Origin: Hyphomicrobiales bacterium
GTDB taxonomy: Bacteria; Pseudomonadota; Alphaproteobacteria; Rhizobiales; Aestuariivirgaceae
Length of the DNA: 49,630 nucleotides
Assembly (NCBI GenBank): GCA_023266715.1
Contig: JAHFPK010000002.1
Span: forward strand, 1 to 49,630
Direction of reading: 5' to 3'
Shown: positions 8,673 to 40,264 of the stretch, in pieces
Position numbering within the stretch: position 1 is the first letter of the stretch
Layout: every line of letters begins with the position of its first letter
Translations under genes and position numbers: made by a program
The notes under the pieces: generated by a model
The model's database searches: none
The model's input: the letters and a program-made list of their open reading frames with translations, nothing else
Told to the model about the DNA's origin: nothing

Positions 8673-8747
<75 letters not shown>

Positions 8748-14941: not shown

Positions 14942-14956
14942 TTAACCCTGCTTTAA
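14942..14956 (+). promoter_or_regulatory. Candidate CtrA binding site upstream of ftsK
   Basis: TTAACCCTGCTTTAACC: perfect TTAA-N7-TTAA with both half-sites extended to TTAACC. Confidence 0.55.
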
Positions 14957-25968: not shown

Positions 25969-25978
25969 TTAGTTATTT
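25959..25978. terminator. Possible bidirectional AT-rich hairpin at the holA/parB convergent junction
   Basis: AAATAACT-GATT-AGTTATTT followed by TT: 8-bp perfect stem spanning both stop codons; low GC so weak. Confidence 0.4.
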
Positions 25979-26836
25979 TTTGCGTGTGAGCCTATGCGTA
26001 ATGCCGTCAAGCTGGTCAAGCGTCTTGTATTTGATCAGGAGTGTTCCGCCTTCCCGTCCCTGCGTTTTGATTTCAACCCGAAGGCCTATGGTCTCTGATA
26101 TTTGTTTTTCCAGGGCACGGATGTCGGCATTCTTTTCCGCCTTAGCCTTGCGGGAAGAAGTCGCAGAGTTGCTTCGCGTAAGCGTCTCCGCCTCGCGGAC
26201 CGAAAGGCCAAGGCTGATAATCTTGTTCGCAAGGTCGGCAGGCGAATCAGTGGCAACCAGCGTTCTGGCATGACCCGCAGTCAGTTTTCCCTCTTCTATA
26301 TAGGCGCGGACCGAATCCGGCAGCGTGAGCAGACGTAAGGTATTGGCAATGTGGCTGCGGCTTTTCCCAACCGAGTCAGCAAGTTGCTGCTGTGTATAAG
26401 AGAATTGCTCGAGCAGTTGCCCATAAGCCCGCGCTTCTTCGAGAGGATTCAAATCAGAGCGCTGGATATTTTCAATGAGCGCTATTTCAAGCGTTTCACC
26501 GTCGCTGAGTTCACGGATGAGAACTGGCAATTCATGAAGGCCCGCCCGTTGTGACGCCCTCCAGCGGCGCTCACCGGCAACGATTTCATATTCGCCATCC
26601 GAACGTTGGCGAACCACAATCGGTTGCAGCAATCCCTTTTCACGAATGGATTTTGAAAGATCCTCGAGTTCCTCCTCGCCGAATTGCTTGCGTGGATTAT
26701 TTGGATTGGAATGGAGCAACTCTATAGGAAGATGGCGCAGGCCTCGGAATTCTTCCGGAGAGGCCGCTTCGATGACATCATCGCCGATAAGTGCGGCAAG
26801 GCCTCGACCCAACCTGCGTTTTTGTGCCTGCATCAT
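25973..26836 (-). CDS. parB: Chromosome partitioning protein ParB
   Basis: RRLGRGLAALIGD, LHSNPNNPRKQF, IVAGERRWRASQRAG, HTH SRSHIANTLRLL. Confidence 0.97.
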   Translation of the reverse strand: MMQAQKRRLGRGLAALIGDDVIEAASPEEFRGLRHLPIELLHSNPNNPRKQFGEEELEDLSKSIREKGLLQPIVVRQRSDGEYEIVAGERRWRASQRAGLHELPVLIRELSDGETLEIALIENIQRSDLNPLEEARAYGQLLEQFSYTQQQLADSVGKSRSHIANTLRLLTLPDSVRAYIEEGKLTAGHARTLVATDSPADLANKIISLGLSVREAETLTRSNSATSSRKAKAEKNADIRALEKQISETIGLRVEIKTQGREGGTLLIKYKTLDQLDGITHRLTRKK

Positions 26837-26908: not shown

Positions 26909-27736
26909 TCAAGCCGCCCGAAGTTCACGCTCGCGGCGAATGACTTCCGATGCAAGTTTAATGTAGGCCTGGGATCCCGAACAGATGTTATCGTAAAGTA
27001 GGACTGGCTTGCCATAGGAAGGGGCCTCGGAAACTCTGACGTTGCGCGGTATGACTGTTTGGTAAACCTTGTCGCCAAGCACACTGCGAACGTCCTGTGC
27101 AACCTGGTCGGAAAGGCTGTTTCGCCGATCAAACATGGTAAGAACAACACCCTGAATGGTTAATTTTGGGTTAAGAGTTGTCCTGACCCGCTCCACTGTT
27201 TTCAAAAGCTGGCTGAGCCCTTCCAGGGCGAAAAATTCACATTGCAGGGGTACCAGTATGGCGTCTGCCGCCGAAAGTGAGTTGATGGTCAAAAGATTGA
27301 GGGAGGGAGGGCAATCAACCAGGATGTAGCTGTAACTGCGAGCCTTGTTTTGCTGCCGCGAGAGGCGCCCGATGGCATCGGCCAGCCGGTAGGCCTTGCG
27401 GTCAAAATCGGCCAATTCAAGTTCCGCGCCCAAAAGGTCAATGGTTGAAGGAACACAGTGCAGCCTTGGAATTCCTGAATCGACGATAACCTGGTCCAGT
27501 TCCGCCTCTCCAATGAGCACATGGTAGGAGGATTTTTGTTTGGGTCCGCGTACGATCCCTAGCCCGGTACTGGCATTGCCCTGGGGGTCGAGATCAACGA
27601 TAAGGACGGTCTCCCCAACTGCGGCAAGGGCCGTTCCCAGATTGATCGCCGTCGTCGTTTTACCTACCCCGCCCTTTTGATTGGCAATTGCAAGGATGCG
27701 GGGGCTGAAGGACTGAGTCTGCTTAAACACGGGCAA
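26909..27736 (-). CDS. parA: Chromosome partitioning ATPase ParA
   Basis: ILAIANQKGGVGKTTTAINL deviant Walker A; SYILVDCPPSLNLLTINSL. Confidence 0.97.
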   Translation of the reverse strand: MPVFKQTQSFSPRILAIANQKGGVGKTTTAINLGTALAAVGETVLIVDLDPQGNASTGLGIVRGPKQKSSYHVLIGEAELDQVIVDSGIPRLHCVPSTIDLLGAELELADFDRKAYRLADAIGRLSRQQNKARSYSYILVDCPPSLNLLTINSLSAADAILVPLQCEFFALEGLSQLLKTVERVRTTLNPKLTIQGVVLTMFDRRNSLSDQVAQDVRSVLGDKVYQTVIPRNVRVSEAPSYGKPVLLYDNICSGSQAYIKLASEVIRRERELRAA

Positions 27737-28349
27737 TCTCCTTTACCTCAAGAATGATACCGTCCGAATCGGTCATACTTGCATGCCTATTGATTGCACC
27801 CATTTTCCAGAATTTGGTAGCCTCGATCATTTCCCTGTCCACACCTTGTCCCTTGTGAAACAGACCAATGGCCCCCCGCTTCAGCAAGGGCTCGGCCCAG
27901 AAGAGCAACTTCTCAAGGGGTGCCAGCGCCCTGGCTGTCACATACTGCGGTATTTTTTCCGGCAAATGATCCTCAAGAGTTTCCAGCCGAATTTGGCGAA
28001 CACTCGCGTTGGCCTTTGTCTGCCGGATGGCCTCCCGTAAAAAAGCAACTTTCTTACCGTTGCTCTCATATAATTCCGCGCGGAGATTGCCCCCCAATGC
28101 CAAGACTAGACCGGGTATCCCAGCCCCCGACCCTAGGTCGGCGATTGCTTCTGCTTTGCGCATGAGAGGTAGGAGCTGCAGGGAATCCAGAACATGGCGC
28201 CGCCAGATATCCTCGATTGTCGACGGCCCAATCAGATTAATTTTCGTTTGCCACGTGAGAAGCAGCTCGACATAGCTTTCAATTTTGATGAGTGATTCAC
28301 GTGAAACATTCAACCGCGCCAACACGTCATCAGCAATATACTGAACCAT
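27723..28349 (-). CDS. rsmG: 16S rRNA (guanine-N7)-methyltransferase RsmG (GidB)
   Basis: AIADLGSGAGIPGLVLAL; YVTARALAPLEKLLFWAEPLLKRGA; position between mnmG and parA. Confidence 0.95.
   Translation of the reverse strand: MVQYIADDVLARLNVSRESLIKIESYVELLLTWQTKINLIGPSTIEDIWRRHVLDSLQLLPLMRKAEAIADLGSGAGIPGLVLALGGNLRAELYESNGKKVAFLREAIRQTKANASVRQIRLETLEDHLPEKIPQYVTARALAPLEKLLFWAEPLLKRGAIGLFHKGQGVDREMIEATKFWKMGAINRHASMTDSDGIILEVKEIARV
28293..28308. promoter_or_regulatory. Candidate parS site 1 (inside rsmG 5' coding region)
   Basis: TGATTCACGTGAAACA, one mismatch to the canonical parS 16-mer TGTTTCACGTGAAACA. Confidence 0.85.
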
Positions 28350-30263: not shown

Positions 30264-30279
30264 AGTTTCACGTGAAACA
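30264..30279. promoter_or_regulatory. Candidate parS site 2 (mnmE-mnmG intergenic)
   Basis: AGTTTCACGTGAAACA, one mismatch (first base) to TGTTTCACGTGAAACA. Confidence 0.9.
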
Positions 30280-31654: not shown

Positions 31655-33685
31655 ATGTCTAAGAACCTGCTCGACCAAGAGACCAGCCCCTATCTTCTCC
31701 AACACAAGGATAATCCCGTCCATTGGCAGGGCTGGTCAGAAAAGACACTTCAGCAGGCCCAAGATAGCAACAAGCCCATTCTTCTTTCAATTGGCTATGC
31801 CGCCTGTCACTGGTGCCATGTCATGGCCCACGAGAGTTTTGAAGACCCGGTGACTGCCGACCTTATGAACCAGAACTTCATCAACATCAAAGTCGATCGA
31901 GAAGAGCGGCCCGATTTAGACCGCATCTACATGGCGGCCCTCCACAGCCTCGGGGAACAGGGAGGATGGCCCCTCACCATGTTCCTGACGCCTGATGCTC
32001 TTCCTTTCTGGGGTGGCACTTATTTCCCGCCTGAGACGAGATTTGGAAGACCCGGCTTCCGCCATGTCCTGACCGAAATCTCACGCATCTGGAACCAGGA
32101 AAGAAATAAAATCACCCAAAACGCCGAAGCTATATCGAGTGCTCTACAGCGATCCAGATATATCACCAGCACGGATCAACTTGCTAGCAATGACATTAAT
32201 CGGGCCGCTGATGTCATCATCAACGCCACTGACGCGCAATATGGCGGTCTGAAAGGCGCTCCCAAATTTCCGCAAGGCTCCATCTTCACTTTTCTCTGGG
32301 AAGTCTATCTGCGCACCCAGAATGAAAGAGCCCGAGATGCCGTCCTCACAACTCTCATGCAGATCAGCAATGGCGGGATCTATGACCATCTCGCCGGTGG
32401 CATCGCGCGCTATTCCACCGACCACAAATGGCTGGCGCCCCACTTCGAAAAAATGCTGTACGACAATGCCCAGTATGTAAGCCTGCTCACGCGTGCCTGG
32501 CTCAAGACCGAAAATCCGCTGTATTTTTCACGCATTGAGCAGACCGTTGAATTTGTCCTCCGCGAGATGACCGGCAGCACTGGCTGCTTTACCTCCAGCT
32601 ACGACGCCGATTCAGAAGGCGAAGAGGGAAAATACTATGTTTGGAGCCAGGCCGAGATACAACTGCTATTGGAGCCCCACGAGTTCGAAATATTCCAAGC
32701 GGCCTATGACGTTACGGCTTCAGGCAATTGGGAAGGCAACATTATTCTTAATCGAACCCACGACAAAACACCTGCCACGCCCGAGAACGAAAAAATCCTT
32801 GCGGGCGCCCGCGCAAAATTATGGGCGGCGCGCAACAGGCGTATACCACCTCAACATGACGATAAGATCCTTGCTGATTGGAACGGTCTCTTTATTACGG
32901 CTCTTGCGGAAGCGTCCCTGATATTCGATCACAAGACGTGGGCCAGCGCAGCGATAAAAGCCTTTTCTGAATGTCTCAATCTGTTCTGGAAAGACGGCAG
33001 GCTCCTTCACAGCCACCGCGCCAACAGCACGCGGCATCAGGGAACCACCGATGACTATGCAAATCTCATTACCGCAGCACTTGCCCTCCATAACCTGACC
33101 GGCGATCCGCTCTATATAGTCAAGGCGCAAGAGCTCACTGCAGCGCTTGAAGAAAGCCACTGGGACAACATTGCTGGCGGCTTCTATCACGCGTCGCAAA
33201 AGCACACGAAACTGCCCATCAAAAGTCGCACCATTGAAGACGATGCGACGCCCAACGCAAATTCTGTGATGATCAAGAATTACAACGATCTCTATCATCT
33301 CACCGGGGGCAACAACTTCCACACCAAAGCCGTGAAGATAGCTGAAGCATTCACATCAGCAGCAAAATCAAACCCCTTCGCAGCACCCGGTTTGCTCAAA
33401 AATACTCTCTTGCTGCAGGATACGATCCAGCTCGTTCTCACCAACGATTCAAATTCCGCAAAGAACGAAATGTTGTTGTTAGCGCTAAAACACACGGGGC
33501 TTGATGCAACGATTCACATAACTGGGACAAATTCAGACTTGCCAGCAAATCATCCAGCGCATGGAAAAACAGTGAGCAGCGACAAACCGACACTCTATAT
33601 CTGCCGGGGCATGACCTGTGCAAACCCCGCCATAAACACAGTTGAAACACTGTCAGCCCTGCGTTTATTGGGAATTATGGGCTAG
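31655..33685 (+). CDS. Thioredoxin domain-containing protein (YyaL/DUF255, SPATA20-like)
   Basis: NLLDQETSPYLLQHKDNPVHW, GYAACHWCHVMAHESFED, KVDREERPDLDRIYM. Confidence 0.95.
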   Translation: MSKNLLDQETSPYLLQHKDNPVHWQGWSEKTLQQAQDSNKPILLSIGYAACHWCHVMAHESFEDPVTADLMNQNFINIKVDREERPDLDRIYMAALHSLGEQGGWPLTMFLTPDALPFWGGTYFPPETRFGRPGFRHVLTEISRIWNQERNKITQNAEAISSALQRSRYITSTDQLASNDINRAADVIINATDAQYGGLKGAPKFPQGSIFTFLWEVYLRTQNERARDAVLTTLMQISNGGIYDHLAGGIARYSTDHKWLAPHFEKMLYDNAQYVSLLTRAWLKTENPLYFSRIEQTVEFVLREMTGSTGCFTSSYDADSEGEEGKYYVWSQAEIQLLLEPHEFEIFQAAYDVTASGNWEGNIILNRTHDKTPATPENEKILAGARAKLWAARNRRIPPQHDDKILADWNGLFITALAEASLIFDHKTWASAAIKAFSECLNLFWKDGRLLHSHRANSTRHQGTTDDYANLITAALALHNLTGDPLYIVKAQELTAALEESHWDNIAGGFYHASQKHTKLPIKSRTIEDDATPNANSVMIKNYNDLYHLTGGNNFHTKAVKIAEAFTSAAKSNPFAAPGLLKNTLLLQDTIQLVLTNDSNSAKNEMLLLALKHTGLDATIHITGTNSDLPANHPAHGKTVSSDKPTLYICRGMTCANPAINTVETLSALRLLGIMG

Positions 33686-35117: not shown

Positions 35118-35555
35118 TTATTGGAACGGCTTAACCACGACAAATACAACAATAATGATCAATAGGAGCGTCGGAACCTCATTGATGACGCGAAAAAACC
35201 GGGCATTCCTAGTGCGCTGGTCCCTGGCAAACTGCCGGAGATAGACCTCTAACGCCCCATAATACAAAAGCAGCAGGAAAACCGCCGCCAACTTTCCCAA
35301 GACCCAAATCTGAAAAAGCTCAATTTGGCCCGCGATCAGAAGCAAAACACCCGACAACAGACTCATTACCATTGCGGGCCTCATAATGACCCCCGTCAGG
35401 CGCCGTTCCATCGTCTTGAACAACTCGCTGGCTTCGCTGCCCGGAGAAACATCACAATGATAAACAAACAACCGTGGCAGATAGAATAAACCCGCCATCC
35501 ACGCAACAACCGAAACGATGTGAATGGCTTTAAGCCATAAAAACCACTCAACCAT
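35118..35555 (-). CDS. hemJ: Protoporphyrinogen oxidase HemJ (CopD-like membrane protein)
   Basis: 145-aa TM protein with WLKAIHIVSVVAWMAGLFYLPRLFVYH; adjacent to hemE. Confidence 0.93.
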   Translation of the reverse strand: MVEWFLWLKAIHIVSVVAWMAGLFYLPRLFVYHCDVSPGSEASELFKTMERRLTGVIMRPAMVMSLLSGVLLLIAGQIELFQIWVLGKLAAVFLLLLYYGALEVYLRQFARDQRTRNARFFRVINEVPTLLLIIIVVFVVVKPFQ

Positions 35556-36612
35556 GGTTATTCACTTCATCAAAATCCCTGATTGTTTTGACAATGCTTG
35601 CCAGAACGTGCGGATCGGTTTGTGGCTTAATTCCATGACCCAGGTTGAAAATATGACGGTTTCTGGAGATAGAGCTCACAAGATCCAGCGTATGCTTGCG
35701 CACTACATCATTATCGCAAAGCAATAACAATGGATCCAGATTTCCTTGTATGACCGCATCGGCAGGCAAAATCGACTGTAAAAATTTCAGTGAACATTCC
35801 GCCTCAACACCAATGGCCTGGCATTGGGTTTTTGAGTAGACCTCGCCATGGCGATACCCCGCCCCCTTGGTAAAAACAATAATTGGAATATCAGGAAATT
35901 TGACTTTCACGCCGGTGACAATAGCATGAATTGGTTCAATGCAATATTCGGTCAGTAATTCTCCGGGCAACTCACCAGCCCAGGAATCAAATATCTGTAC
36001 GACATCGGCGCCAGCTTCAATTTGAACACACAGATATTCAATTGAATTTTCAACTAGGCGGGAAACCAGCTCCTTGAACCAATCTTCCTTCTGATAGGCA
36101 ATTTTTCTCGCAAGTTCCCGCTCGGAGCTTCCGCCCTCAACCATGTAACTTGCAACCGTCCAGGGAGCGCCGCAAAAACCAATCAATGAAATTTTAGGAC
36201 CCAAATCATGCCGCACCCGGTTCACTGATGCTGCAACCGATTCAAACTGCATGGATTTATGTCCAGATTTCAGCCGCAGCAAATCAGCGCTGCTTCTCAC
36301 TGTCTCTAATTTGGGTCCCTCACCTTCAATGAATGTGAGACCATTGCCCATCGCATGCGGAACAACCAAAATATCTGCAAATATGATTGCCGCGTCGATA
36401 TCATAACGCCGCAATGGCTGCAGGGTAACTTCAGCAGAAAGAAAAGAAGAATAACATAATTCCAAAAACGATCCTGCTTGCTCCCTGACCTTACGATACT
36501 CAGGCAAGTAACGGCCCGCCTGTCGCATAAACCAAATCGGCCTTCTCACAGACTTACGACCCGTCAATACGTCTATTAACGGCTGATTGTTTGGTGCGGC
36601 CATTCTTCTCAA
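35548..36612 (-). CDS. hemE: Uroporphyrinogen decarboxylase
   Basis: PIWFMRQAGRYLPEYRKVR, IGFCGAPWTVASYMVEGG, FNLGHGI. Confidence 0.97.
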   Translation of the reverse strand: MRRMAAPNNQPLIDVLTGRKSVRRPIWFMRQAGRYLPEYRKVREQAGSFLELCYSSFLSAEVTLQPLRRYDIDAAIIFADILVVPHAMGNGLTFIEGEGPKLETVRSSADLLRLKSGHKSMQFESVAASVNRVRHDLGPKISLIGFCGAPWTVASYMVEGGSSERELARKIAYQKEDWFKELVSRLVENSIEYLCVQIEAGADVVQIFDSWAGELPGELLTEYCIEPIHAIVTGVKVKFPDIPIIVFTKGAGYRHGEVYSKTQCQAIGVEAECSLKFLQSILPADAVIQGNLDPLLLLCDNDVVRKHTLDLVSSISRNRHIFNLGHGIKPQTDPHVLASIVKTIRDFDEVNNHG

Positions 36613-36967
36613 AGATACTTTCTATAAATTGAATATGATGTTGTAGGCCCCAGAGCGGGATTAAAAAATAATCAATCCCCTATAATAAACGACATGGCGT
36701 TGAAAAATAATTTCTTGTTGTTAAATATATCATCAAAATTAACTGAACAAATTCAATATATTAACCAAAGAAACCGAATACAGATTGATGTTATCCACTC
36801 TTATCCACAGCAAAAACTTATCCCCATAATCGGGAAGGTGTGTATTCTCCAAATTGCCCTGTTAATAACATTCTCACAAAATTAACCAAATATTAACCGT
36901 TTAAATTTGCGAAAAATTATCCACAATTCACCTGTTAAAACTCCACATCTTCCGACGAGTTACTTAA
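36613..36967. other. oriC: Probable chromosomal replication origin (oriC)
   Basis: AT-rich hemE-maf intergenic region with DnaA-box-like TTATCCACT (36791-36799), TTATCCACA (36801-36809), TTATCCCCA (36818-36826), TTATCCACA (36917-36925) and a CtrA-type TTAA-N7-TTAA (36882-36896); hemE-flanked origin matches known alphaproteobacterial organisation. Confidence 0.88.
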
Positions 36968-37555
36968 TTGGACATCATGCTAGCTTCAACCAGCAAAATC
37001 CGCCGCAACATTCTGGACAATGCTGGAATAAAATTCACCGCGATTGATCCGGAGCTTGATGAGACAAAAGCAAAAAATTCAATGGCGGAATTTTCTGCGC
37101 AAGAAATTGCCATGCAACTGGCCAAGCTGAAATCGTCAAAGATATCCAATCAATACTCCAAAGCACTTGTCATCGGCGCAGATCAGGTACTTGGATTCAA
37201 AAATCAGATCTTCAATAAGCCGGCCTCGCGAGCCGAAGCCGAAAATCAATTGCTGAAGTTACGGAATGCCACACATATTCTATATTCTGCACTTTCCTGT
37301 GCTATTGCGGGTGTCGAAGTTTGGAGCCACTGCTCCGAAGCTCGATTGACCATGCGAAATTTTACTCCGGAATTTTTGTCGTCATACTTGGATAGTGGCT
37401 CCAAAGGCTATTTGTCCTCGGTCGGCGGCTATAAATTGGAAGAGACGGGCATTCAGTTATTTGACAAAATTGAAGGCGACTATTTTGCTATTCTGGGCCT
37501 GCCTATATTGCCGCTTCTTGACTTTCTGAGACGGCAAGAATTTATCCTATCATGA
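36968..37555 (+). CDS. Maf-like nucleoside triphosphate pyrophosphatase
   Basis: MLASTSKIRRNILDNAGI, VIGADQVL, GYLSSVGGYKLEETGIQLFDKIEGDYFAILGLPILPLLDFL; start TTG 36968 or ATG 36977. Confidence 0.93.
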   Translation: MDIMLASTSKIRRNILDNAGIKFTAIDPELDETKAKNSMAEFSAQEIAMQLAKLKSSKISNQYSKALVIGADQVLGFKNQIFNKPASRAEAENQLLKLRNATHILYSALSCAIAGVEVWSHCSEARLTMRNFTPEFLSSYLDSGSKGYLSSVGGYKLEETGIQLFDKIEGDYFAILGLPILPLLDFLRRQEFILS

Positions 37556-38993: not shown

Positions 38994-39676
38994 GAGAAAT
39001 TGTACTGGATACGGAAACAACCGGGCTGGATCCCCTGCAAGGCCATCGCATTGTGGAAATTGGAGCCATTGAATTGCTTAACCACATTCCAACCGGCAAC
39101 ACCTATCACAGCTTTATCAACCCGCTACGCGATGTGCCCCGCGAAGCCGAGGCCGTTCATGGACTGAGCGGCGAGTTCCTAAAGGACAAGCCCACCTTCT
39201 CGCAAATCGCCGATGAATTCCTGGAATTCATTGGTGAGACAGTTTTGATCATTCACAATGCCAGCTTTGATGTTGGTTTTCTGAATGCCGAACTGGATTT
39301 CATCAAGCGGTCGCCCATACTCTATGAGCGCATAATTGACACGCTGACACTCGCCAAGAAGCGTCATCCCATGGGCCCCAACAGTCTCGATGCGCTCTGC
39401 AAGCGCTACGGAATTGACATCGTAAAGCGCACGAAACATGGCGCCCTGGTGGACTCGGAACTTCTGGCCAGCGTCTATCTCGAACTCATCGGTGGCCGCC
39501 AAATCGCCTTGATCCTGCCACAGACCGATAATATCCGTCAGTTGCAATCTGGCAATACCCCAGTACAGGCAAAGCGAAGCATCGCACTTCCTGAACGGAT
39601 CACCCGTGAAGAAAAAGAGCGCCACGAGGCCTTGGTCAAAAGTCTGGGCGCTGCGGCGCTGTGGAAATCAACCTGA
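38990..39676 (+). CDS. dnaQ: DNA polymerase III epsilon subunit
   Basis: REIVLDTETTGLDPLQGHRIVEIGAIEL, HNASFDVGFLNAEL, KHGALVDSELLASVYLEL. Confidence 0.96.
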   Translation: MREIVLDTETTGLDPLQGHRIVEIGAIELLNHIPTGNTYHSFINPLRDVPREAEAVHGLSGEFLKDKPTFSQIADEFLEFIGETVLIIHNASFDVGFLNAELDFIKRSPILYERIIDTLTLAKKRHPMGPNSLDALCKRYGIDIVKRTKHGALVDSELLASVYLELIGGRQIALILPQTDNIRQLQSGNTPVQAKRSIALPERITREEKERHEALVKSLGAAALWKST

Positions 39677-40264
39677 AGCTTGGGCCCGTGCCGCAGATTG
39701 TTGCTGCATGCGCTTTTGATACATGCCGGCAAAATCTATCGGGTCCAGCATCAGGGGAGGAAATCCGCCATTGCGTGTCGCATCTGCAAGGATCTGCCGT
39801 GCGAACGGAAACAGCATCCGCGGGCATTCAATGAGAACGGCCGCATGAAGCATATTGGCCGGAAAATTTTCCATCCGGAAAACCCCTGCGAACAAAAGCT
39901 CTGAGGCAAATATAACCTTGCCCTCCGATGTCGCCTTTGCGTCGAGATGCAGCTCCACCTCAAAATCCGTTGGCGCCAGGTTGCGGGCATTGACGTTGAC
40001 CGCAATATTGATGTCGGGCTGGCTTTGCTGTGGTGCTAGGGCTTGAGGCGCATTCGGATTTTCAAAGCTCAGGTCTTTCAAATACTGGCCAAGAATGCGC
40101 ATCGAAGGCTGGGTCCCGGGTTGTGGCGGCGGAACCTGCAGATTGACCGCTCCGCCAGCTTGGCCTTCGGAGATTTTTGGTCCGTTTTCTGCCGGGCGCT
40201 TGCCACCGCCGTTGGTCGCCTTTGCCGCAGGCTTGCGGGGAGCGGGTTTTGCTGCTTTTGCCAT
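39668..40264 (-). CDS. secB: Protein-export chaperone SecB (with long N-terminal extension)
   Basis: SMRILGQYLKDLSFENPNAP, VELHLDAKATSEGKVIFASELLFAGVFRMENFP, ECPRMLFPFARQILADATRNGGFPPLMLDPIDFAGMY. Confidence 0.95.
   Translation of the reverse strand: MAKAAKPAPRKPAAKATNGGGKRPAENGPKISEGQAGGAVNLQVPPPQPGTQPSMRILGQYLKDLSFENPNAPQALAPQQSQPDINIAVNVNARNLAPTDFEVELHLDAKATSEGKVIFASELLFAGVFRMENFPANMLHAAVLIECPRMLFPFARQILADATRNGGFPPLMLDPIDFAGMYQKRMQQQSAARAQASG

Follow-up and report, generated by a model that had tools for sequence, protein, structure and literature searches.

The question raised by this locus is whether the AT-rich gap between hemE and maf is a chromosomal origin of replication (oriC), as an earlier note on this DNA had considered probable, or whether its DnaA-box-like sites serve some other function. 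We approached it within the whole stretch of DNA that was analyzed, 49,630 nt long and referred to below as the window, and within the genome to which it belongs, a 477-contig, 3.15-Mb draft, using published criteria for alphaproteobacterial origins (PMC1914354). The gap, its two flanking genes, and one further gene on the maf side are as follows:

36604..36976, no strand: predicted oriC, the divergent intergenic region between hemE and maf; 373 bp, 32% GC, start codons checked
35548..36603, minus strand: hemE, uroporphyrinogen decarboxylase, origin boundary gene (TIGR01464, 369.9 bits)
36977..37555 (ATG at 36977), plus strand: maf-like nucleotide pyrophosphatase, the other flank (TIGR00172, 120.1 bits)
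39668..40264, minus strand: secB (family search)

The region is indeed AT-rich, its 32% GC comparing with about 53% across the 49,630-nt window, and it directly adjoins hemE (35548–36603), the boundary gene of hemE-type alphaproteobacterial origins. Its limits had previously been drawn at 36613 and 36967 from upstream TTG codons; the best-supported starts, at 36603 for hemE and at the ATG at 36977 for maf, move both. The gene names and strands assigned earlier held throughout, with hemE, hemJ, rho, mnmE, mnmG, rsmG, parA, and parB on the minus strand and maf, aroE, coaE, and dnaQ on the plus strand, and family searches confirmed all of these together with secB and genes for Tim44-like, MltA, and Smr-domain proteins. 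That the flanking genes mostly point away from the gap is true of the named genes, the exceptions being secB, on the minus strand, and a plus-strand gene at 31655–33685 within the minus-strand block. The latter is a DUF255/DsbH thioredoxin-like gene lying between mnmE and rho, opposite in orientation to its neighbors. By HemE identity, the closest named relatives are two genomes of uncultured Rhizobiales/Rhodobiaceae (79% and 70%) and an Aestuariivirga genome (56%), which places the organism in an uncultured Hyphomicrobiales lineage, probably close to Aestuariivirga. A search for RNA families across the window returned only a tRNA at 8676–8747, and scanning the gap for sigma-70 promoters gave no signal beyond chance. 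GANTC, the CcrM methylation site, occurs at about half its expected frequency window-wide (104 versus 207), and none was found in the gap.

Scanning the gap for binding sites gave the following features:

36791..36799, plus strand: DnaA box 1, TTATCCACT, one mismatch (box scan)
36801..36809, plus strand: DnaA box 2, TTATCCACA, perfect (box scan); position kept in relatives
36818..36826, plus strand: DnaA box 3, TTATCCCCA, one mismatch (box scan); 7/9 positions invariant in four relatives
36859..36870, minus strand: weak reverse DnaA-box-like site, TTATTAACA; 10/12 positions invariant
36882..36896, plus strand: CtrA-type site, TTAACCAAATATTAA (TTAA-N7-TTAA; motif scan); partly kept in relatives
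36917..36925, plus strand: DnaA box 4, TTATCCACA, perfect (box scan); 8/9 positions invariant

The four same-orientation DnaA-box-like sites of the earlier note were thus recovered in place, all on the plus strand. Two features had gone unmentioned: the weak reverse box at 36859–36870, which is TTATCAACA, a one-mismatch box, in the relatives G005, G010, and RBC017; and the CtrA motif, which separates box 3 from box 4 some 80 bp ahead of maf. First-order Markov simulations built on the gap itself (n = 3000) gave an expectation of 0.19 boxes carrying no more than one mismatch for the 373 bp, versus the four observed, and 0/3000 simulations reached four. The box count of the whole window is ordinary (11 versus 6.8 expected), and it is therefore the clustering of the boxes, not their number, which is significant. 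Within the 3.15-Mb, 477-contig draft, the cluster motif TTATCC-N5-35-TTATCCNCA occurs only here.

DnaA and CtrA double as transcription factors. We were concerned that the gap, which is divergently flanked and carries its CtrA site so close to maf, could be a divergent hemE/maf promoter at which DnaA (and CtrA) regulate transcription, with the origin elsewhere, for example near dnaA. A box cluster that is unique in the genome argues against this, and a promoter would leave unexplained why the gap is found at the very genes that bound the origins of Caulobacter and Rickettsia. The dnaA gene is on another contig, where 8 kb of sequence contain no CtrA site and two boxes, one perfect and one mismatched, separated by 2 kb; because there is no box cluster in these 8 kb, we rejected an origin beside dnaA.

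An origin in the hemE–maf gap should also contain DNA that is easily unwound, and two stretches were identified:

36704..36763, 5' of the boxes: least stable 60-bp stretch of the window; putative alternative unwinding region or hemE promoter region
36861..36920, 3' of boxes 1–3: second least stable 60-bp stretch of the window; candidate unwinding region

Both of the least stable 60-mers of the 49.6-kb window are therefore inside the gap. In Escherichia coli and Bacillus subtilis, the unwinding region lies 3' of the adjacent TTATCCACA, and for this reason we favor 36861–36920. Neither strand of the gap contains an IHF consensus (WATCAN5WTR or WATCAN4TTR); this consensus is degenerate, not every origin element is required in each genome (PMC1914354), and we do not treat the missing site as excluding a hemE-type oriC. 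A DnaA-trio/BUS module, defined as three or more trios ([G/A]A[T/A]) whose central base is A and which lie no further than about 16 bp from a DnaA box (PMC8287927), was also sought. There is no trio run beside the boxes, the one three-trio run (at 36663) being far off, and the canonical BUS model is thus unsupported here; trios also escaped the published search in 15% of genomes (PMC8287927).

On the hemE side of the gap are the partitioning genes and their putative sites:

25973..26836, minus strand: parB (ParB_N, HTH_ParB, ParB_C)
26909..27736, minus strand: parA (AAA_31/CbiA)
28293..28308, plus strand: parS-like site, TGATTCACGTGAAACA, one mismatch (motif match)
30264..30279, plus strand: parS-like site, AGTTTCACGTGAAACA, one mismatch (motif match)

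The two parS-like 16-mers near parAB lie 6.5–8.5 kb from the boxes (expected by chance, 0.19 at up to three mismatches). Neither had been recorded previously. In Caulobacter, parS is at most 8 kb from the origin (PMC4468827). The nearness of parS and parAB, like the unstable AT-rich DNA, fits an origin better than a promoter.

The earlier note had proposed that the GC-skew minimum of the full replicon should fall near 36.6–37 kb. In the window, the cumulative minimum is at 37297 (block-permutation p about 1e-4), and gene orientation flips at the same spot. Among same-strand genes, third-codon skew shifts as expected in each case, from −0.142 to −0.053 on the plus strand and from −0.055 to +0.128 on the minus strand, a shift which per gene is not significant (p = 0.08 and 0.20, respectively) and suggestive only. 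Results from relatives were mixed: of six in which skew was tried, one was supportive and the other five were weak, absent, or offset. In the supportive congener, G004, cumulative skew across 400 kb bottoms out at 321159, within 600 bp of hemE (321733), and dnaA is 226 kb away. Skew was weak in G018, with a local dip only, and in the family member G088, and the minimum of G022 was about 20 kb off. The congener G050 (G050:C2, ~804804) has no turn, its skew falling steadily through hemE, and G030, from another family (G030:C2, ~959103), has no minimum at hemE; these two may have a relocated origin or a rearranged chromosome. We conclude that GC skew provides moderate support in the window and no general proof, consistent with its description as a weak indicator in alphaproteobacteria (PMC1914354).

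The missing skew turn at hemE in G050 and G030 is a further point for the divergent promoter with an origin elsewhere, an explanation that we nevertheless consider very unlikely given the cluster, the unstable DNA, and the parS sites. The same uncoupling of skew from hemE would suit an inactive relic, that is, a former origin from which initiation has since moved. The window's own skew turn at this very spot speaks against a relic, as does the conservation of the predicted sites, which exceeds that of their surroundings in the nearest relatives, and we regard a relic as extremely improbable. In an alignment of six hemE–maf gaps, the boxes of relatives line up with those of the window. With invariance taken over four non-identical relatives, 45/65 positions in the predicted sites (the four boxes, the weak reverse box, and the CtrA site) are invariant versus 72/308 in the rest of the gap (Fisher p = 5e-12); the boxes and the CtrA site had been fixed in advance, and the reverse site was picked from the alignment, which biases its share of this statistic.

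A broader comparison of the 450 bp 5' of hemE pointed in the same direction as the conserved sites. The mean number of boxes having no more than one mismatch is 2.24 for 33 distinct members of the family, 1.54 for 28 genomes of other Hyphomicrobiales families, and 5.5 for Rickettsia/Orientia, versus 0.12 for eight gammaproteobacteria, whose origin is not known to lie at hemE. The Caulobacter value is 0.6, matching its weak G-boxes (PMC4468827), and box counts alone would therefore overlook the Caulobacter origin, Cori. Box pairs about 100 bp apart recur 5' of hemE in congeners. In the congeners G011 and G018, hemE and maf are separated by a Kinase-PPPase gene (PF03618), which we take to be COG1806. 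In Caulobacter and Rickettsia, the origin is enclosed by hemE and COG1806 (PMC1914354). No PF03618 match was found in the drafts of the window's genome, G004, G005, G010, G017, or G064. The simplest reading of these draft genomes seems to be that Kinase-PPPase was lost in the window's clade, with maf becoming the right-hand flank.

Given these results, we conclude that the hemE–maf gap is very probably (about 0.92) the chromosomal oriC of a hemE-type alphaproteobacterial chromosome, a judgment reached from sequence in which the hemE boundary gene, the clustered boxes unique in the genome, the CtrA site, the high AT content, and the window's own skew turn support the earlier call, with skew in relatives mixed and an IHF consensus lacking. 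The true origin may instead lie in sequence missing from the 477-contig draft. The call would fix the replication direction and the gene-dosage order of an uncultured lineage.

Within this probable origin, the CtrA-type site raises a separate question. Motif matching found one full TTAA-N7-TTAA in the gap, and a CtrA ortholog is encoded in the genome, a strong full-length match that shares 84% identity with the protein of Caulobacter. The whole draft holds 27 TTAA-N7-TTAA sites, versus 13 with a spacer of 8, and 3/27 fall in the 49,630-nt window; the others in the window are at 27160–27174, inside the parA frame, and at 14942–14956, at the start of the ftsK frame. We then have the distribution of the spacer-7 motif 5' of hemE, where the counts come from genomes that are related and cannot be treated as independent: 28 among family members versus 0.4 expected (spacer 6, 9; spacer 8, 0), 12 in other Hyphomicrobiales families versus 0.7 expected, and 14 in Caulobacter versus 0.03 expected, with none in the eight gammaproteobacterial controls (0/8). 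Many congeners carry paired TTAA-N7-TTAA motifs exactly 21 bp (two helical turns) apart, at distances from hemE of about 130 and 151 bp, and in eight relatives' loci (L025, L027, L029, L030, L259, L260, L263, and L271) such a pair lies at about 122–156 bp. The window's site is single and placed differently from these 21-bp pairs, and this unlikeness indicates that CtrA site positions turn over.

Published work bears on these motifs in both directions. CtrA does not bind the Sinorhizobium meliloti origin (PMC4433202), Brucella abortus CtrA does not bind its own origin (PMC2877005), and a 2015 review stated that CtrA sites in origins had not been seen beyond Caulobacter and possibly Rickettsia (PMC4468827); in Hyphomonas, CtrA binding was found near the origin (PMC7200025). 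The two negative precedents come from the same order as the window, and the site itself is degenerate in the close relatives G005 and G017 and shifted in other congeners to different positions nearer hemE. These observations are what one could cite for an origin that is correctly placed and whose TTAA-N7-TTAA is a CtrA promoter element of hemE/maf or a chance match with no replication role. Such a site would not account for the spacer-exact enrichment at hemE in the family and in other families, for the empty gammaproteobacterial controls, or for how few such sites the genome contains, and we hold it to be a serious if somewhat doubtful explanation. We see the chances as evenly poised that CtrA directly binds and restrains the origin in Aestuariivirgaceae and several other Hyphomicrobiales families, so that gating would extend far beyond Caulobacter (and perhaps Rickettsia), with positions turning over and with loss in the Sinorhizobium/Brucella branch. 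The motif at 36882–36896 is, on its sequence, a candidate gate in an order whose model species lack one. We judge the spacer-exact motif excess at Hyphomicrobiales hemE-side origins to be more useful than the origin call itself; it makes the timing of the rise of CtrA replication control testable across an order.

A working model of the predicted origin can be proposed. DnaA-ATP would bind boxes 1–3 together with box 4, about 100 bp off, forming an oligomer that spans them; this oligomer would melt an AT-rich segment, most likely 36861–36920, where helicase would be loaded and from which forks would depart both ways. In non-replicating cells, phosphorylated CtrA on 36882–36896 would block the access of DnaA to box 4 and to the unwinding segment. 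ParA and ParB acting at parS would then separate the copied origins.

Among known systems, Caulobacter crescentus Cori is similar in being hemE-sided and AT-rich, in having DnaA sites with interleaved TTAA-N7-TTAA motifs (PMC1914354), and in having parS no further than about 8 kb away (PMC4468827). Cori differs in its weaker G- and W-boxes, versus near-consensus boxes in the window; in its five CtrA sites, versus one full site; and in its COG1806 flank, whereas in the window maf is the flank, COG1806 is missing, and there is no IHF consensus. The Rickettsia origins (hemE/COG1806) are likewise AT-rich, with near-consensus boxes mostly in one orientation, and in Rickettsia rhipicephali (L082) two perfect boxes lie at 259 and 373 bp from the hemE match, a spacing of about 115 bp; unlike the window, the Rickettsia origins have more boxes, much lower GC, and another arrangement of CtrA-like motifs. 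S. meliloti and B. abortus belong to the same order as the window, and their chromosomal origins presumably also lie beside hemE. Those origins were published without CtrA sites or binding (PMC4433202; PMC2877005), whereas the window has a full motif. The predicted origin thus appears ordinary in kind for its bacterial class, with a possible CtrA on/off site as its extra feature.
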